Positions 20,250 to 28,473 of a stretch of 45,437 nt of DNA are shown piece by piece. Position numbers and translations under genes: made by a program. This DNA comes from a bacterium (lineage in GTDB: Archaea > Thermoproteota > Nitrososphaeria > Nitrososphaerales > Gagatemarchaeaceae), in the NCBI GenBank assembly GCA_027310575.1, contig DAIDAO010000049.1, positions 1-45,437 on the forward strand, written 5' to 3'. Under the pieces are notes generated by a model. It was not told where the DNA came from, made no database searches, and saw only the letters and a program-made list of their open reading frames with translations. The first letter of the stretch is position 1. The number at the start of each line of letters is the position of its first letter.

Positions 20250-21227
20250 ATGCAGACAGTCGAGATTGACAGCGGGTGCCCCGAGTGTATGGCGAAGCTC
20301 ATCGACACCGGAGACGAGCTCGTATGCCCCAGCTGCGGGATAGCCAGGCAGAAGCAGGTGCTGGAGCCGGTCGGCGGACCGAGGGCAAGGCCCCAGGACG
20401 CGGTAAGGCCCGCGCTCGGCAGCTACATGGGCCCTCGCTCTGCCCCGGCGCGGGAAAGGTCTGCGAGGGGGATAACTGGCTTCGGCGGGAGGTTCGGGTA
20501 CCTGAAAGCCGTGTCTGACTTCGCAGGGAGGGACGAGGGCTCGGGCGTGACGTGTGCGAAGCTAATCGAGCGGGTCGGCGAGAGCCTCTGCCTTCCAAGC
20601 ATCGTGCTGCTCGAGGCCGCTTCCACGGCGAACAAGGTGCTCGCCACGGTCAAGTCGCTCCGAAAGACGCCCATAGCAGTGATCTCGGCGTATTCGATCA
20701 TATCTGCATCCAGGGTGGCCGGAGTGACTACTGCGAACGCGAGGGAGGTCATAGCGGCGCACGAGGCGCTCGGGAGACGGGTGAGCGCCTCGTCCGTTTT
20801 CCATCTGATGCTAGAGTCCCCTGTAAGGACCTTCGCGCGTGGGCCCGAGGAGTATCTTTCCCGCGTCCTTGCCCGTCTTTCCATGAGCCGCGCCCTCTCG
20901 GGCAGGCTCGAGAAGGAAGGACTGTTGCTGACGGCGTATCTTGGCGCGCTCCGCGAGACTGGGCGCGAGCTGCTGCGGCTGACCGACCAGACGGAGATGC
21001 TCGGGAAGAGACCTTGCGCGCTGGCAGCATCCGCAGTCTATTCCGCGGAGACCGTCCTCTCCGTGTGCGAAGCGAGGGACAGGAGGATAACCCAGCGGGA
21101 AGTGGCGAGGTGCGGGGACACCTCCGAGTACACTGTGAGGGAGCAGTGCGCAGTGATCTTCACCGGTGCTGTTGAGAAGCTGGTTGCGCGAAGGATGCAG
21201 ACCCTCCCTCTTGCGCGCGGACGCTGA
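20250..21227 (+). CDS. Divergent TFB (transcription factor B) paralogue
   Basis: A 325-aa protein with an N-terminal zinc ribbon (Cys10, Cys13, Cys28, Cys31; CPEC and CPSCG) and two cyclin-fold repeats. The second repeat contains TQREVARCGDTSEYTVREQ near residues 275-293, equivalent to the recognition helix of TFB that reads the BRE next to the TATA box. The linker and first repeat match canonical TFB poorly and the B-reader region is not recognisable, so this is more likely a specialised paralogue than the housekeeping TFB. ATG 20250 is chosen because the zinc ribbon starts there; the upstream in-frame extension is low-complexity. Its 3' end overlaps the convergent membrane protein by 68 bp. 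Adjacency to the pilus locus hints at a regulatory link. Confidence 0.8.
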   Translation: MQTVEIDSGCPECMAKLIDTGDELVCPSCGIARQKQVLEPVGGPRARPQDAVRPALGSYMGPRSAPARERSARGITGFGGRFGYLKAVSDFAGRDEGSGVTCAKLIERVGESLCLPSIVLLEAASTANKVLATVKSLRKTPIAVISAYSIISASRVAGVTTANAREVIAAHEALGRRVSASSVFHLMLESPVRTFARGPEEYLSRVLARLSMSRALSGRLEKEGLLLTAYLGALRETGRELLRLTDQTEMLGKRPCALAASAVYSAETVLSVCEARDRRITQREVARCGDTSEYTVREQCAVIFTGAVEKLVARRMQTLPLARGR

Positions 21228-21975
21228 AGGTTCCTGCTGGCCCCTGGATGCCCGCCTGCTGAACCTGCACGTCGAAGCTGACGACGCACGACGCGCCTGC
21301 AGAGACCGCATAGCCGAGACTGAATATGAAGCCATCAGCGGCAGCGGTGGAGGCGGGGACCCTGCTTGCTCGATCTATCAGCGGGGCGACTGCGGCCGAG
21401 GTGCAGTTGGAGGCGATCGTCGTCGATATCGCGCTCGACAGGTAGGCCACGGCGTCGACGCAGTCGCCTGCGAGGAGCAGGAGCCGCACCGGCAGATGAA
21501 CCAGGTGTACCTCCGTCTTGTGAATCGACACACCGGCCCCCGTAGAGTTCCCGGACACCGACATTCTAACGGAGACGCCCAAGTCGCCGCTTAGAGAGCC
21601 GTTGAACGGGGCTGCGATCGAAAGGTTGTCGTCCGCTGCGGCGTTGGCCCCCGCCGTGGCGGTCGCGGTCACGGTCACGGGGCCTGAACGCTGGACGTCG
21701 GACAGTCGGCCTATCATGTTCGAGACGTCTTGGGATGCCGTAGAGCAGCTCAGGACCCTCGAGGCAAGAGACGCCTGCGCTTCGATGAGCACGTTTGTCG
21801 CAGCGGCTCCCATCAGCGCGATCGAGTTGACCCGCAGCGAGTCCCCGGCGTCGGACTGCGAGTAGAGCGTCTCCCTCCCCTGCGACGCTGCGAACACCAC
21901 GAGGTTGCTGAGGAGCAGGGCCGCGAATATCAGGGCGGAAGCGGAGGAGGCCGCGACGCCTAACCGGCGGACCAT
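21160..21975 (-). CDS. Membrane-anchored extracytoplasmic protein, last gene of the pilin-like operon
   Basis: A 271-aa protein with a short basic N-terminus (MVRRLG), one strong hydrophobic helix (about residues 7-30) and a long Ser/Thr/Ala-rich, probably extracytoplasmic beta-rich domain containing several N-x-S/T sequons. This is the layout of a minor pilin or pilus-associated adhesin. I recognise no family. It overlaps its upstream neighbour by 16 bp and the convergent TFB paralogue by 68 bp. The Ala/Ser/Thr bias and a single helix are what is seen; a pilus-surface role is inferred from the operon. A plain signal-anchor protein is the main alternative. Confidence 0.65.
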   Translation of the reverse strand: MVRRLGVAASSASALIFAALLLSNLVVFAASQGRETLYSQSDAGDSLRVNSIALMGAAATNVLIEAQASLASRVLSCSTASQDVSNMIGRLSDVQRSGPVTVTATATAGANAAADDNLSIAAPFNGSLSGDLGVSVRMSVSGNSTGAGVSIHKTEVHLVHLPVRLLLLAGDCVDAVAYLSSAISTTIASNCTSAAVAPLIDRASRVPASTAAADGFIFSLGYAVSAGASCVVSFDVQVQQAGIQGPAGTFSVRAQEGGSASFAQPASQQHR

Positions 21976-22316
21976 GCCACGAGCGTGACCTCAAACGGGA
22001 CCAGCCTCATCGAAAGGCTGGCGACGACAGACCCACGCCTCGGAGGGCTGCCGCAGGAGACCGAGCCGAGTGTCGCGGAGACCCCGAAGGACGAGTTCGA
22101 GATGCTGGAGAGGTACGAGCACACAGCCCAGGACGGGGATACGAGAAACCACGCGATCCCCCGCTGCTGCAGGAGGGCTAGCAGGCCGTCCCTCAGCTGC
22201 GTCTGAGCCGCGATCCGATCGGAACCGGTGTCCCCACTCCTGGGATCCCAGGCCACGATGCCTGTTATCGCCGAGGTCCCGATGAGGGCGGCGACCGCAA
22301 GGTCGACGTATCTCAA
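21960..22316 (-). CDS. Short single-helix protein of the pilin-like operon
   Basis: A 118-aa protein of no recognised family. An N-terminal hydrophobic stretch (MRYVDLAVAALIGTSAITGIV) would anchor it, and the remainder (about residues 25-118) is Ser-rich with a few Cys and probably outside the membrane. The TTG start at 22314-22316 overlaps the stop of the preceding 35-aa gene as TTGA, and its own 3' end overlaps the next gene by 16 bp, so translation is probably coupled. Size and anchor suit a minor pilin. Confidence 0.58.
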   Translation of the reverse strand: MRYVDLAVAALIGTSAITGIVAWDPRSGDTGSDRIAAQTQLRDGLLALLQQRGIAWFLVSPSWAVCSYLSSISNSSFGVSATLGSVSCGSPPRRGSVVASLSMRLVPFEVTLVAWSAG

Positions 22317-22420
22317 CGCGGCACCAGCCCAGGGACCAGGACGGCCAGCGCGAGCAGCGAGAGGGTGATGATTACCGCGTACATGACCGCCACGTCGACG
22401 TAGGCTTCCACTTCAGACAC
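22313..22420 (-). CDS. 35-aa single-helix membrane micro-protein of the pilin-like operon
   Basis: The frame starting at GTG 22420 gives 35 aa: an acidic N-terminus (MSEVEAYVD) followed by one continuous hydrophobic helix and a short LVPR tail. The start overlaps the upstream gene by 8 bp and the stop overlaps the next start (TTGA). The surrounding genes leave no gap unless this frame is used, which is the main support for it. It is about the size of a pilin stalk without a head. It may be a minor pilin or an assembly factor. Confidence 0.55.
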   Translation of the reverse strand: MSEVEAYVDVAVMYAVIITLSLLALAVLVPGLVPR

Positions 22421-22790
22421 TCCGCTCCACCTCCACCACGCCCTGCGCGAGCGACAGCCTGTAGTGCGCCCCTGCGGCAAGGCTGACGTTTGGGAGTCGC
22501 CACGCCACAGGCATCGAAAGGGTTCCATTCCCATCGAAGCAGGACACGGACTGGCCCGAGAGACGCACGGAATCAGAGATACCGGCCAGGCCGTAGCTGA
22601 GGATCACTGACACCCCGGGATGGAGGGAGTCGACGACCGCCCTGATCCCGTCCAGATAGCGCCAGTCAGCGGCTTCTCTGGATTCCCGGGAGACTGCGGC
22701 GAGCTGGGGGGTGAAGAGAAGGACGAGCACGGCTGCCGCGAACAGGTAGACCCCCCAGGCATTCAGCCCGCCGAAGGATGACGCGGTCAC
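22413..22790 (-). CDS. Membrane-anchored pilin-like protein
   Basis: A 125-aa protein with an N-terminal helix at about residues 10-31 (AWGVYLFAAAVLVLLFTPQLA), a charged segment (SRESREAADWRYLDG), and a C-terminal beta-rich domain with one Cys. The GTG at 22788-22790 directly follows the TAA of the upstream gene. No family is recognised. The architecture resembles archaeal pilins and TadE/F-like pseudopilins, but no prepilin cleavage motif is clear. Confidence 0.6.
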   Translation of the reverse strand: MTASSFGGLNAWGVYLFAAAVLVLLFTPQLAAVSRESREAADWRYLDGIRAVVDSLHPGVSVILSYGLAGISDSVRLSGQSVSCFDGNGTLSMPVAWRLPNVSLAAGAHYRLSLAQGVVEVERSV

Positions 22791-23150
22791 TTACGTCACC
22801 GACAGGGTGAGCTGCGACGAATCGTCGGTGAACGTGAGCACGTGCACCCCGGGTGGAACACCCACGACGAAGCCACACGTCAGAGGGAGGCGTTCCTCCA
22901 GCGAGGCATTCCCGACGGTCATGCTAAGGACCCCTGCCTGGCACGCTACCGTCGAGGCCGGGAGGGCAACTGTGGCGTTTGCGCTCCCGCTCTCTGCCGC
23001 TCTTGACGCCAGCCCGGCCACGAGCCCGAACGCGGCATGAAGAGAGAGCCCAGACTCGAAGGACGTGAAGCTGCCGTACACTGCGACCGACCCCGTGACG
23101 AAAAGGGTCGAGGCGATCACGACGAGACTGTACTCAACCAGCTCGGCCAT
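22791..23150 (-). CDS. Pilin-like protein with a mature-type N-terminus
   Basis: A 119-aa protein beginning MAELVEYSLVVIASTLF. After removal of Met, the order A-E-L-V-E-Y puts Glu at +5 and Tyr at +6 before a hydrophobic helix, which is the hallmark of a mature Flp/type IVb pilin. A beta-rich head of about 85 residues with two Cys follows. The ATG at 23148-23150 is preferred over GTG 23186 because a GATATAAC (TATA) box at 23172-23179 sits about 25 nt upstream, giving a leaderless message; the longer frame would run through that promoter. It is the first gene of the leftward five-gene operon. Confidence 0.65.
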   Translation of the reverse strand: MAELVEYSLVVIASTLFVTGSVAVYGSFTSFESGLSLHAAFGLVAGLASRAAESGSANATVALPASTVACQAGVLSMTVGNASLEERLPLTCGFVVGVPPGVHVLTFTDDSSQLTLSVT

Positions 23151-23164
23151 CGGGACGACACCCG

Positions 23165-23205
23165 CGGGCGAGATATAACGAGCCACCTTGGGCGTTTTAT
23201 CGCGT
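23165..23205. promoter_or_regulatory. Back-to-back promoters of the divergent pilus operons
   Basis: On the minus strand a GTTATATC box (23172-23179) lies about 25 nt before the pilin-like ATG. On the plus strand CGTTTTATCG (23193-23202) lies about 32 nt before the TTG of the ATPase. The two boxes are about 20 bp apart, so initiation complexes on the two promoters could hinder each other. A shared regulator in this 78-bp gap would control the whole locus. Confidence 0.6.
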
Positions 23206-23228
23206 TTCGTTCGTGGTCCCTCGGACCT

Positions 23229-24668
23229 TTGAAGTCAGGACTCGAACGCTCCTTTCTCTCCCTCACAGCGCGGAGGAAGGCACAGACCGAACCCTCCCCG
23301 CTCCTGATAGAGCTGTTAGGGAAGGCCGACGAAGGCGGAGGCTGGACAAGAGGATACCCGTTCCGGTACAGGGTGACGAGCGTCAACTCGGCCCCGTTCT
23401 ACGAGGTCGGGCTCGGCCTCCCGCTGGACTCCTGCATGCTGCTCAGGAAGGCGGTCAAAGAGATCTCGGTCGCACTCGACCCGCGAGAAGTGGAGCCGCT
23501 CACCTTCAGGCGCCTAATCGAGGTCCTCACCCAGCACGCGGCTGAGCGCCTGGCCTCTTACGGCGCAAGGCTCAGAATCAGGGAACTCGCCGAACTGGCC
23601 GCATACGAGGCGATCGGGCTCTCCAGGATACTGGCCATAGCCAAGGACGAAAGGGTGACCGAATTCTTCGTGGACTCCGACGCCTCGCCCGTCTACCTGG
23701 ACCATGCGGTCGCAGGGAGGTGCGAATCCGGAATCGTCCTGACCGCGAGGGAGAGGGATGCGCTGGCCACCCACGTGGATACCTTCAGCGGGTACACCCT
23801 CGACTTCAAGACACCGTCGCTCAAGAACGACCTTGCCATAGGAGGCGCGATCCTCAGAATATCTCTGGACCTGGAGCCGGTGTCGGTCAACAGATTCGCG
23901 CTCGATGTGCGGCGCCTCAACATCTCGACCCTGTCCCTCGCGGAGCTAGTCAGGCTCGAGGTGATCTCAGGGGAGGCTGCTGCGGTCCTCGTCGGATGGC
24001 TGGAGACCGGTGGGAACGTGACTGTGGTGGGCGAGACCGGGACGGGGAAGACGACGCTGCTGAATGCGCTCGACGAGCAAGTCGAACGCCGCCTGAGGCG
24101 TCTCTACATCGAGGACGCGGTGGAGACCAGAGACCTGCTCGAAAGGGGATACCACCAGATGAAGGTAAAGGTGGACCCGTTCGAACGCGGTGAAGAATCG
24201 GGGAGGACGAAGGAGTCCGAGATCGTGAAGGCGCTCCATCGCTCCCCTGACATCGTGATCCTCAGCGAGATACAGTCCGAAGAGCACAGCCGCGCCTTCT
24301 TCCAGGCGCTCGCGTCCGGGGCTCGCGGGATCCAGACATTCCACGCTTCAGGCATCGAGCAGGCGATCAGGCGGTGGACCGGGATGCACCACATCGCCGC
24401 GGAGAACATCCTCGACCTCGGGCTGATGGTCCAGATGTCCAGGCCTGACCGCCTCAAGCAGTCAAGGTACGTACAGCGCATCTGCGAGGTCGTCCCGGAA
24501 GGAGGGTCCCCGAAGCTCAAGGAGCTCTTCCTCCGCGACAGAGGGGGGAGGCTCCGGAACGTCGCAGGGAGCGGCTGGCCCCTCCCACCTGAGGGGGTTG
24601 ACCCTGCCAGGTTCCACGAGAGGGTCGCCCGAGCGACGGAGCGGCTCGGCGGGAGGTCGGATGGTTGA
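23229..24668 (+). CDS. TadA/FlaI-type secretion ATPase
   Basis: A 479-aa hexameric ATPase of the VirB11/TadA/FlaI/GspE family that powers pilus assembly or secretion at the cytoplasmic face. The N-terminal part (1-240) includes the conserved DERVTEFFVDSD and TPSLKNDLAIGG stretches. Walker A is GETGTGKTT at residues 268-276, the Asp/Glu box is IEDAVETRD, Walker B is IVILSEIQSEEHSRAF near 340-355, and a His box follows (GIQTFHASG). Longer in-frame N-termini look like translated upstream DNA. TTG 23229 is chosen from the TATA box 32 nt upstream. The stop overlaps the next gene as TTGA. Confidence 0.9.
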   Translation: MKSGLERSFLSLTARRKAQTEPSPLLIELLGKADEGGGWTRGYPFRYRVTSVNSAPFYEVGLGLPLDSCMLLRKAVKEISVALDPREVEPLTFRRLIEVLTQHAAERLASYGARLRIRELAELAAYEAIGLSRILAIAKDERVTEFFVDSDASPVYLDHAVAGRCESGIVLTARERDALATHVDTFSGYTLDFKTPSLKNDLAIGGAILRISLDLEPVSVNRFALDVRRLNISTLSLAELVRLEVISGEAAAVLVGWLETGGNVTVVGETGTGKTTLLNALDEQVERRLRRLYIEDAVETRDLLERGYHQMKVKVDPFERGEESGRTKESEIVKALHRSPDIVILSEIQSEEHSRAFFQALASGARGIQTFHASGIEQAIRRWTGMHHIAAENILDLGLMVQMSRPDRLKQSRYVQRICEVVPEGGSPKLKELFLRDRGGRLRNVAGSGWPLPPEGVDPARFHERVARATERLGGRSDG

Positions 24669-25363
24669 GGTTCGCTTCTCTGGACCACTTCCGAATCAGC
24701 CCCTGGAGGATTGGAGCCGTCGGCGCCGCGGCCGCGGGTGGCTCGGGCCTCTCCACGGAATTGGTGCTCGGCGACTCTGTCGGGCAGGCGCGCGTGGCCA
24801 TCGCCCTGATCGTCGCCGCGCTCGTTCTCTACATCGTCCTCTCGACCCCGAGGAGGCTGCTGGACGCGCAGCGGGTGTCCCAGGCGCGGGAGTCGCCTCT
24901 TCTGTCAGCCTCCGCCTCGGCCTGCCTCGCCGTGACGGGGTCGAGGCCGAGGACGCTCATCCTGCTCAGATCCAGGGACCAGGCCCTGGCTGATTCGCTC
25001 AGAGACACGGGGAGGAGGGTCCTCCTCGGGGCGAGCGTCGAAGGCGCCGTAGCGGGGTCGGTCGGCGCGCTGGCGTCGTATTCCGCAGCTGCTTCCCTCA
25101 GGGCTCTGGCGGCGTTCACGCCGAAGGCCGTAGCCCAGGGGGACGAAGAGATGCGCGGGATCGTGTCGTCGGCGGAGCTGAGCAGGGAGACGAAGATCCC
25201 GATGCTGACGACCGTCTGCTTCTTTGCTCCGATTCTGCTCATACTCTATGCCGTCTTCTCGCGCTCGTACGGCGCCGTGCAGCTCGGAGAGCTCGCCTCT
25301 CTCGAGTTCATTGCCATCGACCTTGCCTTCTACCTGTGCGCTGCCGACAGAGGCGCGCGTTGA
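24665..25363 (+). CDS. TadB-like short membrane platform protein
   Basis: A 232-aa protein with hydrophobic segments at about residues 15-35, 42-60, 115-135 and 180-230 around a cytoplasmic helical stretch (SRPRTLILLRSRDQALADSL). It lies between the assembly ATPase and a second similar protein, joined by TTGA overlaps at both ends. This is where TadB and TadC sit in Tad loci. Each T2SSF unit is expected to carry a helical bundle and membrane helices. I infer the family from order, size and topology; sequence motifs are too weak for certainty. The start is the TTG within the upstream stop. Confidence 0.68.
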   Translation: MRFASLDHFRISPWRIGAVGAAAAGGSGLSTELVLGDSVGQARVAIALIVAALVLYIVLSTPRRLLDAQRVSQARESPLLSASASACLAVTGSRPRTLILLRSRDQALADSLRDTGRRVLLGASVEGAVAGSVGALASYSAAASLRALAAFTPKAVAQGDEEMRGIVSSAELSRETKIPMLTTVCFFAPILLILYAVFSRSYGAVQLGELASLEFIAIDLAFYLCAADRGAR

Positions 25364-25998
25364 ACCCCGAGCTTGCGATGGTCAGGTCCCTGCGGAGGGT
25401 GCTCGAGTCGGCGGGGGAGGGGAAGGGCATGGCGCGGTCTGTGGTCCTGGAGCTGCGCACGTCGCCCCCCCTCGGCTCGGACGCTGCGAGGATGCTCCTC
25501 CTCGGATACCCGCTGCGGGCGTCGCTCAGGCCGCTTGTCGAACATGGCTCCGAGGAGGCGGGCATGCTCGCGTCCCTCGTAGTCGCAGCCCCAGAGAGCA
25601 GCGCATCGCTCGTGGGCGCGAGCGGGGAGGCCCTCGCGGACACGCTTGAGACGTGGGTGAAGGCCAGGGACAGCAGGAGGGCCGAGCAGAAGGTCCTGAG
25701 GTTCAGGAGCATCGTGACCTCAGGGGTGCTGGGGGCGGTCACGGCCATGGTGGCGTCGATGGGTCCCCTTGTGGGGAGCCTGAGCTTCGGGGGGAGCGGA
25801 CCGCCTGCAGACCCTGCCACGCTGCTTGCGGGGGCCGCGGTCATGGCCACGACCAGTTCGGCCATGCTCGGCCTGTTCATGTCCGGGAAGGGCTTCCTGA
25901 CCAACGTCCTGGTCACCATCGGAGTGTTCGCCCTCGTGAGCGCAGTCGCGTCCCCCCTGGTGGCTTCGCCGGTGCCGATCGCGTGGGGCGTTAAATAG
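25360..25998 (+). CDS. TadC-like short membrane platform protein
   Basis: A 212-aa protein with an N-terminal helical cytoplasmic half. It includes LGSDAARMLLLGYPLRASLRPL and SGEALADTLETWVKARDSRRAEQKVLRFRSI (read in parts), which resemble the T2SSF helical bundle just before the first membrane helix. Three or four hydrophobic helices follow. The TTG start at 25360-25362 overlaps the preceding TGA. With its neighbour it seems to split the job done by the single ~500-aa FlaJ/ArlJ of archaeal motility. The stop codon lies inside the TATA box of the downstream pilin. Confidence 0.7.
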   Translation: MNPELAMVRSLRRVLESAGEGKGMARSVVLELRTSPPLGSDAARMLLLGYPLRASLRPLVEHGSEEAGMLASLVVAAPESSASLVGASGEALADTLETWVKARDSRRAEQKVLRFRSIVTSGVLGAVTAMVASMGPLVGSLSFGGSGPPADPATLLAGAAVMATTSSAMLGLFMSGKGFLTNVLVTIGVFALVSAVASPLVASPVPIAWGVK

Positions 25999-25999
25999 C
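25990..25999 (+). promoter_or_regulatory. TATA box of the Flp-like pilin gene
   Basis: GTTAAATAGC is centred 25 nt before the ATG of the 69-aa pilin and includes the TAG stop of the TadC-like gene. A separate promoter here would let the pilin be made in excess over the assembly machinery. Confidence 0.65.
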
Positions 26000-26018
26000 G
26001 CGCGCAGGTCTGCTCCCG

Positions 26019-26228
26019 ATGTCGCTCTGGAGCAGGCTGAAGGCGAACCGCAGGGGGGCGCAGCTGATTGAGGAGGCGCTGCTTCTGTCCGTCGCGCTGG
26101 TCGCCCTCACCCTCCTGGTGGGGGGGATAGAGTCCATCCTGAAGCAGAGCGCAGCATACACGTCGGATGTCTGGAACACGATAACGAGCTCGCTTGGCGG
26201 CATCTTCGGCTCCCTCTTCCACTGGTGA
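26019..26228 (+). CDS. Flp-like type IVb prepilin (major pilin candidate)
   Basis: A 69-aa protein with a basic leader MSLWSRLKANRRG followed by AQLIEEALLLSVALVALTLL. If cleaved after Gly13, Glu lies at +5, the pattern of Flp/type IVb pilins. The mature product would be 56 aa: a single helix with a short aromatic-ending tail (GSLFHW). The family is normally 50-80 aa. It sits directly after the TadB/TadC-like genes, has its own strong TATA, and its TGA overlaps the next start as GTGA. It is probably the structural subunit of the filament. The processing peptidase must be encoded elsewhere. Confidence 0.8.
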   Translation: MSLWSRLKANRRGAQLIEEALLLSVALVALTLLVGGIESILKQSAAYTSDVWNTITSSLGGIFGSLFHW

Positions 26229-27967
26229 ATGGTGTGCGCAGCGCGCGGGACGCGGTCTCTCAGGCGGCGTGGCGGATGTGGCCCCACACTAGGATCGGCC
26301 TCGAAGAGATGAGGATCGCAGACGGGAAGTACGTCCTTTCGTCCGACGGCTCGAGGGGGCGCATGACCGCCTTCTTCAGGGTCGGGACCCCGGACCTTCG
26401 GGACGACCCCAACGTGGACTACTCCGCGGCGCTGAAGACCACGCTGCAGCAGCAGAGGATGAGAGGGCTCTTCGAGGGTCTTCGCAGGGCGGCGGTCCCT
26501 TTCATCTATGTCATGCTGATGAACGAGACCGACGCGGGGGAGGACGTCCCCCCGGTCCTGGAGTTCGACCTGGTCGTGGGCACGTGGGTGGACGTCAAGA
26601 AGAAGGAGGAGGGCGCCCCCGCCCTCGAGCAGAGGGCCAGCATCCTGTCAGCCACGCTCAGCGTCGCACTCCCCACGGCCAACGTGGTCAGGCTCGTGAG
26701 GAAGGAGCTCTCCGACTTCGTGAAGTCTGCCCTCCTCCCCGGCGGGAGGGCGCTCCCCCAGTCAGGCTCCGCAGCCGCCGCCGGCTCCCTCGTATCCTTC
26801 GACGGGGTGTCGCCCGTCGCCGAGAGGCTCGAACAGGCCCCAGAGTTCTACGTGCCGAACGTCGCGGACTCGGGGACGGAGGGATTCATCCTCGGCGCTG
26901 TGAAGTCCGGGGGGAGGGAGTTCCACGAGTTCAGGCTCCAGGCCGAGGACCTGAAGAGGCACATCAGCGTCCTTGGAATGACCGGGTCGGGGAAGTCCAC
27001 GACCGCCGGTCTGATCGTGAAGCAGGTAGCCGAGTCCGGGCTCCCGGTCCTGGTCCTCGACTGGCACAACGAATACGGTGCGATCGTCTCCTCCGTCGGT
27101 GGCAAGGTCGTCGCGCCGGGGAAGGACGAGTTCGCTCTGAACCCGCTGGAGGTCAGGCCCGGCTCCGACCCGGCGGAGCACATCGCGATGGTATCCGACA
27201 TCTTCTCGGACATCTACCACTTCACTCACCCGCAGGCGTACATGTTCCGCAACGCCCTGCAGAAGCGGCTCAGCGAAACCGGCACCGACGAGGTCCCGAC
27301 GATCAAGGCGCTCGTCCAGACCATAGAGGCCTACCCTCTGAAGTCAGCCTACGACAACGAGACCAAGGTCGCGCTCCTTCGAAGGCTCGTCCCGCTGACC
27401 CAGGGGCAGTCTCAGAGGGCGCTCGGCGGGTCGGGGCCGCTCCGGCTCGAGGAGCTCCTCGGGACGGTCGTCTGCGTGGAGCTCGGGCACATGCGGGACG
27501 TGCAGTCCAGGGCCGTGTTCTCAGACGTCCTGCTCAAGATGATATACGAAGAGAAGGTGAGCCGCAAGGGAAGCCTGGACCACCTCACCGTCGTCGAAGA
27601 GGCGAGGAACATCGCTCCCGCGAGGAGGCCCGAAGACCCGCCCACCGTGGGCGAGAGGATGGTCTCGGAGCTCAGGAAGTTCGGGGAGGCGATGATGTTC
27701 GTCGCACAGTTCCCCACGCACGTGGCTGCGGAAGTGGTGAAGAACTCCGGGACGAAGGTGGTGCACCGCCTCGCGTGGCCGGACGACGTCGCGCTCATCG
27801 GGGACTCGCTCGGACTGGACCCGAAACAGCGTGAGCACCTCACGAGGCTGAAGCCTGGCGAAGCTGTCGTCGGTGTCGGAAGGCTTCCGAAGCCGGTCCT
27901 GGTGCAGGTGAGGGCGGAGCGTCAGGACCCGGAGAGCAACGACCTGAGCTTCGCGCCCGAGTCGTAG
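26225..27967 (+). CDS. HerA/VirB4-like (DUF87) ATPase of the pilus locus
   Basis: A 580-aa protein. The N-terminal 230 residues are not recognised. A FtsK/HerA-type motor follows: Walker A GMTGSGKST at 251-259, LDWHNEY just after strand 2, Walker B LTVVEEARNI near 455-465, and QFPTHVAAEVVKNSGTKVVHRL near the C-terminus. HerA proteins process DNA ends with NurA, while VirB4-like members drive conjugation and related secretion. No NurA, Mre11 or Rad50 is adjacent. Translational coupling to a pilin by GTGA instead places it in a pilus or transfer apparatus. Function is inferred from context. The 3' end overlaps the convergent kinase by 46 bp. Confidence 0.82.
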   Translation: MNGVRSARDAVSQAAWRMWPHTRIGLEEMRIADGKYVLSSDGSRGRMTAFFRVGTPDLRDDPNVDYSAALKTTLQQQRMRGLFEGLRRAAVPFIYVMLMNETDAGEDVPPVLEFDLVVGTWVDVKKKEEGAPALEQRASILSATLSVALPTANVVRLVRKELSDFVKSALLPGGRALPQSGSAAAAGSLVSFDGVSPVAERLEQAPEFYVPNVADSGTEGFILGAVKSGGREFHEFRLQAEDLKRHISVLGMTGSGKSTTAGLIVKQVAESGLPVLVLDWHNEYGAIVSSVGGKVVAPGKDEFALNPLEVRPGSDPAEHIAMVSDIFSDIYHFTHPQAYMFRNALQKRLSETGTDEVPTIKALVQTIEAYPLKSAYDNETKVALLRRLVPLTQGQSQRALGGSGPLRLEELLGTVVCVELGHMRDVQSRAVFSDVLLKMIYEEKVSRKGSLDHLTVVEEARNIAPARRPEDPPTVGERMVSELRKFGEAMMFVAQFPTHVAAEVVKNSGTKVVHRLAWPDDVALIGDSLGLDPKQREHLTRLKPGEAVVGVGRLPKPVLVQVRAERQDPESNDLSFAPES

Positions 27968-28473
27968 TCCCGCGTCCAGTCGATCCTGGCGGGCGGCCTG
28001 GTCCCTCCCTTGACGATGCCGACGATCTCCGCCGCGGATGCGTTCGGGCTGGAGCGCGTGGTGTCCACTTCGAAGGTCTTCTCCCGCCCGAAGGCGTCAT
28101 AGGAGTCGGCCGAGACCACCCCTATCAGCTCGGCCTCGACGTTCTCGGTCACCTTCCGAGGGGGGTACCCTCTCTTGAGGAGCCGCTCCTTGAGCGCCGT
28201 GGGCTCGCACCGCAGGACGACGACCTTCTCGGCGGACTTCCGCTCCACGACGTACGGGAGCAGGTGGCCGTGCACGACCGCAGGACCCGTGAGATCCCGG
28301 ATGACCCTCCTTCGGAGCGCCCGCGCGTCCACTTCCCCGTGGTCGGGGATGCCGTGGGCCTGGGCGAGCTCGTTCAGGCTCACGCAGCTGAGCTTCAGCC
28401 GCCTCGCGACGATGGGTGAGACGGTCTTCTTGCCCGTCCCCGGGCTCCCCGTTATCCCGATGATTCCGCCCAC
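27922..28473 (-). CDS. Fap7/AK6-like adenylate kinase (ribosome maturation)
   Basis: A 183-aa P-loop protein starting MGGIIGITGSPGTGKKT, with Walker A at residues 9-17. It then has VSLNELAQAHG, the Fap7-type Asp-containing VDARALRRRV, VVHGHLLPY and RCEPTALKERLLKRGY (LID-like). The order matches Fap7/hCINAP/AK6 enzymes, which have adenylate kinase/ATPase activity and assist maturation of the small ribosomal subunit with uS11. GTG 28473 places the first strand at the N-terminus; no internal alternative keeps it. It is the last gene of a leftward set (S9 peptidase, SelB-like, MsrA, kinase) and overlaps the HerA-like gene by 46 bp. Confidence 0.87.
   Translation of the reverse strand: MGGIIGITGSPGTGKKTVSPIVARRLKLSCVSLNELAQAHGIPDHGEVDARALRRRVIRDLTGPAVVHGHLLPYVVERKSAEKVVVLRCEPTALKERLLKRGYPPRKVTENVEAELIGVVSADSYDAFGREKTFEVDTTRSSPNASAAEIVGIVKGGTRPPARIDWTRDYDSGAKLRSLLSGS

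Follow-up and report, generated by a model that had tools for sequence, protein, structure and literature searches.

DNA import in the Sulfolobales depends on the Ced system (CedA, CedA1, CedB and CedD), of which CedD is essential for import and has no role in export (PMC11868833). TFB3 is required for regulation of both ups and ced (PMC6934391), and the pilus partner, Ups, is encoded elsewhere. Ted of the Thermoproteales has a HerA-like gene near a DNA-transfer pilus. Archaeal Epd-like and bacterial Tad pili use a TadA/FlaI-type ATPase, two small platform genes and a very short pilin with glutamate at position 5 (E5), and bacterial competence (Com) pili work with an inner DNA motor. Here we describe a gene cassette in a 45,437-nucleotide stretch of archaeal DNA (contig DAIDAO010000049.1, hereafter the window, which is contig 37 of a 1.58-Mb assembly), in which genes of a predicted type IV pilus share an operon with a HerA-type ATPase related to CedD. 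The cassette is real and ancient, and we regard it as an apparently undescribed variant of the archaeal type IV pilus that carries a CedD-type motor and most probably serves DNA uptake or exchange. No description of it was found in the literature searched, which did not extend to the supplementary tables of the type IV pilus censuses or to most subscription papers.

As in Ced with TFB3, a TFB paralogue lies in the neighbourhood, DNA import is the likely function, and the ATPase is a positional and phylogenetic relative of CedD; unlike in Ced, it is encoded together with a type IV pilus, and no clear CedB occurs in cassette genomes. The cassette shares with Epd-like and Tad pili the ATPase type and the very short E5 pilin, and has two small genes for predicted platform proteins as they do, whereas it differs in having a HerA motor gene coupled to the pilin gene, glutamate rather than the Flp tyrosine at pilin residue 6, no Pfam-detected T2SSF domain, and no TadZ, secretin or TadG gene seen within it. 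The combination of a pilus with an inner DNA motor (here a putative ComFA analogue), and the interruption of the motor gene by integrase-bearing elements, recall Com; the cassette is nevertheless no Com member, as it is archaeal, has a HerA-type motor and lacks ComEC. Ted resembles it in the HerA-like gene but differs in its VirB2-like pilin, VirB6-like channel and VirB4, and no type IV pilus ATPase is described for Ted in that study (PMC9905601).

Results

The original prediction, made from the sequence of the window, placed ten genes in two divergent operons here, and all ten were present. They are listed below with the shared promoter and with two further genes that belong to the conserved neighbourhood (aa, amino acids).

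20250..21227, + strand: TFB-like transcription factor (zinc ribbon, degenerate cyclin repeats), convergent with the predicted minor-pilin operon; recurs within the family and in other families
21160..21975, - strand: 271-aa one-helix protein, predicted minor pilin; 23-43% identity in relatives
21960..22316, - strand: 118-aa one-helix protein, predicted minor pilin; kept in relatives
22313..22420, - strand: 35-aa single-helix peptide; matches in nine relatives
22413..22790, - strand: 125-aa one-helix protein, predicted minor pilin; kept in relatives
22791..23150, - strand: 119-aa one-helix protein, start M[AT]E[LI][VL]EY; kept in relatives
23151..23228, no strand: divergent promoter (CAACGTTG promoter), two outward TATA boxes flanking a C(C)AACSTTG(G) palindrome; 17-species alignment
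23229..24668, + strand: type II/IV secretion (pilus assembly) ATPase, TTG start; T2SSE (PF00437)
24665..25363, + strand: membrane protein 1, 232 aa, predicted pilus platform; AlphaFold/Foldseek
25360..25998, + strand: membrane protein 2, 212 aa, predicted second platform subunit; conserved, without Pfam match
26019..26228, + strand: major pilin, 69 aa, RRG/AQLIEEALLL (E5 after predicted cleavage); alignment, 74% mean identity
26225..27967, + strand: HerA/CedD-type ATPase, Walker A GMTGSGKST; PF01935, NCBIfam CedD and PDB fold matches
27922..28473, - strand: adenylate-kinase-like P-loop gene (AAA_18, 58.8 bits), the conserved right neighbour adjoining nearly all cassettes; likely a housekeeping bystander

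The leftward block had been described as five overlapping genes; those for the 119-aa and 125-aa proteins abut instead, and the rest of the block stands as described. The shared promoter gap is exactly 78 bp, as predicted, and measures 71-82 bp in 16 relatives. The GTGA coupling of the ATPase gene to the pilin gene was likewise borne out, as was the pilin's own TATA box (TTAAATA, about 25 bp upstream), which is recognisable in 17 of the 17 relatives compared. Since the cassette reading frames are conserved as proteins in relatives, they are not chance open reading frames.

Orthologues of the HerA-type ATPase with 53-76% identity (85% in fragments) were found in most genomes of the same genus and in three of the six other genera of the family. 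The relatives include Nitrososphaerales archaeon JOPF187 and Thaumarchaeota archaeon palsa_1368; palsa-1368 belongs to the Gagatemarchaeaceae, group I.1c non-ammonia-oxidising soil archaea (PMC10640624). Among the same-family loci, 17 have enough flank to be judged (herA is interrupted in two of these), and all of them keep the order secretion ATPase, membrane protein 1, membrane protein 2, pilin, HerA. Each also has the TFB gene and some or all of the divergent block nearby (rearranged in L048), and the kinase gene is next in line wherever the contig extends far enough. About 2 kb of additional sequence separates herA from the kinase gene in L038, L039 and L045.

Beyond the family, four further families of the class keep this core order, as do about ten in the rest of the phylum. 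In those of the class, the cassette can still be recognised although HerA identity is down to about 38%, as in L060 (Nitrososphaeria metagenome-assembled genome SKW303). Loci of this and of other families usually also hold a divergent block for one-helix proteins, together with a TFB-like gene and the flanking kinase gene. The inspected loci of ten families outside the class also contain TFB, ATPase, pilin and kinase genes. In the class sample the cassette was present in 32 of 300 genomes and absent from all listed rows of the same-order family f10; across the phylum, a HerA match with E < 1e-30 was obtained in 68 of 398 genomes. Separation of HerA from the pilin in all relatives had been named beforehand as one of two outcomes that would refute a combined machine; the proposal withstands this check, as the HerA gene lies directly behind the pilin gene in every same-family genome with an intact locus and in many other families. 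In L164, L175 and L186, all outside the class, HerA is spread over two genes, one for an N-terminal portion that has membrane helices and one for the ATPase. Separate genes for a membrane-anchored N-terminal part and an ATPase part directly follow the pilin in L164, L175, L179 and L186.

The HerA-type ATPase matched PF01935 (DUF87) with 71.7 bits (E 1e-19), and its best NCBIfam match was CedD (173.6 bits, E 6e-51; equivalog cut-off 600). CedD was also the best NCBIfam match for every other cassette HerA tested and for the positional homologues in pilus-less genomes. Canonical HerA models in NCBIfam gave 50-57 bits (56.8 for the HerA equivalog, cut-off 800), and the VirB4 family TIGR00929 gave 24 (cut-off 643). 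The best fold match in the PDB was HerA (4d2i, E 3e-15); VirB4 (4ag5) matched with E 9e-13. In the AlphaFold model the N-terminal domain is poorly predicted (mean pLDDT, the predicted local distance difference test score, 64.5), and we therefore do not claim a VirB4-type fold there. In a tree of ATPase domains, the cassette HerAs and the pilus-less CedDs L180-L184 form one clade (93/85) with CedB outside, in a midpoint-rooted topology that has long branches and two stray paralogue rows within the clade. The cassette HerA is a probable orthologue of the CedD of Sulfolobales.

The chromosomal position of the two is also shared. Cassettes sit between Lsm/TGT and kinase/thermosome genes, and pilus-less genomes of other families have TGT, Lsm, RpoG, a CedD-matching gene, kinase and thermosome in this order (L181, L310), or the same without the kinase (L180, L183). 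The CedD gene adjoins the RpoG gene in pilus-less L180, L181, L183, L301, L302, L306 and L310. RPB8, TFIIB and a pilus ATPase have been noted together in Thermoproteus (PMC4858521). CedD exceeded the curated cut-off in one family only, f42 (19 genomes), which we take to be Sulfolobaceae because Sulfolobus acidocaldarius scores among the controls. The f42 order is TGT, Lsm, RpoG, three other genes, a short TFB, thermosome and CedD, which equals the cassette order minus the pilus plus one inversion. Eight of ten loci with CedD over the cut-off have a TFB3-like gene one gene away from it, and in a ninth the distance is 4 kb; in S. acidocaldarius, tfb3 is Saci_0665, thermosome beta Saci_0666 and a HerA/FtsK protein Saci_0667 (PMC6934391, PMC4569737).

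Four relatives have a herA that is broken in mid-gene, with a gene for a tyrosine integrase at the point of interruption: G021 (L051/L224), G022 (L049/L050), G023 (L223/L229) and G027 (L225). In G022 a distance of 91 kb separates the two halves, and in G023 one of 78 kb; each pair is in order on one contig. The integrase gene adjoins the 5' half of herA in G021, G022 and G027, the latter two copies being 67% and 73% identical to that of G021, and a related gene (about 40%) adjoins the 3' half in G023. The three complete integrases have the tyrosine recombinase residues R, HxxR, H and Y, and the PHROG integrase matches of the genes at the breaks ranged from E 1e-4 to 5e-8. Two conserved break sites were used, one at window position 27203 (core TTCTCC) and one near 27061 (core TGGCACA), and the closest integrases within the genus are exactly those at the first site. 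In G022 and G023 an assembly artefact or rearrangement was rejected as the cause: a single contig holds both halves with order and orientation kept, and the break is marked by an integrase gene and a short core that is shared. Cargo in G022, for which the extent of the element is provisional, includes adenine deaminase and XdhC; cargo-like genes also lie beside herA breaks, such as one for a KatG-type peroxidase in G021. Gene-entering elements described to date in thaumarchaea use the 3' end of the gene (PMC6563490), whereas herA was entered in its middle. The pattern is similar to that of bacteria, where the competence genes comYC, comFA, comK and comM are interrupted by prophages and comFA is disrupted at two sites by prophages with distinct integrases (PMC4774983).

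The gene content supports the prediction of a type IV pilus. The secretion ATPase matched PF00437 (T2SSE) with 64.5 bits (E 9e-18, Pfam cut-off 24.9); in NCBIfam it scored 79 bits for FlaI and 70.7 for TadA, both under the equivalog cut-offs (373 for TadA). A second T2SSE ATPase of at least 676 aa, possibly of the archaeal non-secretion type, is encoded in the window's genome (G000:C10:8922-9320, L001). The major pilin carries a class III-type leader with predicted cleavage and E5 in the motif R[RSKV][GA]/[AV]QL[IV]EE, in which both glutamates are invariant; all alignment rows have E5-E6, and the Flp E5-Y6 is absent. It is the most constant exported part, at 74% mean identity compared with 55% for each membrane protein. 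The start of the 119-aa protein resembles, on the basis of its motif, a leaderless Flp-type E5-Y6 pilin start. The small cassette proteins gave nothing usable against Pfam, NCBIfam or PHROGs. A candidate prepilin peptidase (A24) in the window's genome scored 25.9 bits, just under the cut-off of 26.5; a peptidase gene lies within the cassette of L175, from another family (PF01478, 42.5 bits), and probably within that of L160.

Both membrane proteins are predicted platform subunits of the pilus. The T2SSF fold expected of them was weakly favoured for membrane protein 1 (AlphaFold pLDDT 83), whose top Foldseek matches in the PDB were the T2SSF domains of EpsF and OutF, although these were not significant (E 1.6, probability 0.75) and Pfam T2SSF did not match. 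Profile comparison of the two proteins gave a probability of 9.7% and a shared LLG motif only. The statement that archaeal type IV pili normally have one FlaJ was wrong, as two platform genes occur in Epd-like pili and several clades (PMC6668835, PMC4858521).

The divergent promoter was examined for a regulatory signal. Allowing at most one mismatch, the palindrome-TATA pattern had a single match in the window's genome (G000) and a single match in G005, both at the cassette; in G016 there were three matches versus two for the backward control. The TFB of the cassette has diverged strongly (15 bits for TFIIB; 27.6 bits for NCBIfam TFIIB, cut-off 384), whereas several other TFB genes of the genome match clearly. 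At least six further TFB genes are present in G000, on contigs C1, C30, C51, C52 and C59. We suggest that the cassette TFB may drive the divergent promoter.

Discussion

We consider it rather likely that the products of the locus form a single machine for DNA uptake or exchange, with HerA as the inner DNA motor. On sequence grounds, the secretion ATPase and two predicted platform proteins would build a short type IV pilus whose subunit is the 69-aa pilin, the divergent one-helix proteins serving as putative minor pilins or anchor. The pilus would capture DNA or a partner cell, and the HerA-type ATPase, by analogy with CedD, may assemble as a ring on the inner side of the membrane and pull DNA inward. 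The adjacent TFB-like factor may switch the module on at the divergent promoter, as TFB3 does for Ups and Ced. This function is favoured because the core order is kept across family, class and phylum, because CedD is the best NCBIfam match of cassette HerAs and the tree joins the two to the exclusion of CedB, and because cassettes share their slot with pilus-less CedD, which is essential for import but not export. The TFB3-like gene near CedD, together with the need for TFB3 in ups/ced regulation, and the splitting of herA by integrase elements, as in bacterial competence genes, point the same way. Within the original proposal of a "pilus or transfer machine", the likeliest function is thus DNA uptake or exchange.

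Several observations weigh against this proposal. The cassette HerA scores far under the CedD equivalog cut-off (174 versus 600 bits), and that of the window is without the N-terminal membrane helices of CedD. No membrane channel for the DNA was recognised: ComEC (PF03772) was found in none of 15 genomes and was detected in 10 control genomes. CedB had no match in G000, G016, G378, G342 and G336, and weak generic matches only in G005, G075 and G503. Neither membrane protein has a Pfam match to the T2SSF platform domain. TFB3 lies beyond the thermosome gene from CedD and can be equated with the cassette TFB only by assuming an inversion; it is also set apart from RpoG by three other genes.

Alternatively, the locus could encode an ordinary adhesive or sensory type IV pilus on which HerA acts, for example as a second or disassembly motor, without moving DNA. 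Coupling of the HerA gene to the pilin gene would fit, as would the retraction of one archaeal pilus although archaea are without PilT (PMC11178785). We nevertheless find this unlikely: homologues of known function in HerA's branch of the superfamily move DNA, DNA import requires CedD (PMC11868833), and CedD stays in the slot where the pilus was lost.

The similarity of the HerA fold to VirB4 could instead indicate a conjugation-like machine for export of DNA or protein, in which HerA acts like VirB4. The combined pilus and pump locus of the original prediction is supported, with HerA directly behind the pilin in intact same-family loci and in many other families, but its pump is closer to CedD than to conjugative VirB4 (174 bits versus 24). 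No VirB6, VirB8, VirB10 or relaxase gene was seen within the locus, which is chromosomal and syntenic between families, and CedD has no export role (PMC11868833); export is thus quite improbable. Least probable is that two unrelated neighbours, a pilus operon and a DNA-repair helicase of the HerA-NurA type, happen to adjoin. HerA is also a repair helicase and 4d2i is the best fold match, yet no NurA, Mre11 or Rad50 gene was seen in the cassette, canonical HerA models score 50-57 bits versus 174 for CedD, and the pilin-HerA linkage recurs across the phylum.

If the cassette does serve DNA uptake or exchange, it may be a missing DNA-uptake machine of many archaea. We tentatively raise the possibility, with some doubt, that in this phylum it is the ancestral machine for DNA uptake, a competence pilus that carries a TFB switch of its own and a motor of the CedD type and does without ComEC; Ced of the Sulfolobales would then have arisen by loss of the pilus genes, with CedD and TFB3 rewired to a conjugation-type channel and Ups pili. 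A phylum-wide operon that joins a type IV pilus to a CedD-type motor provides a concrete candidate for DNA uptake and suggests an origin for CedD, and the uptake question becomes testable in Sulfolobus laboratory strains. The integrase-bearing elements in the motor gene further suggest a conflict between transformation and mobile elements as known in bacteria.

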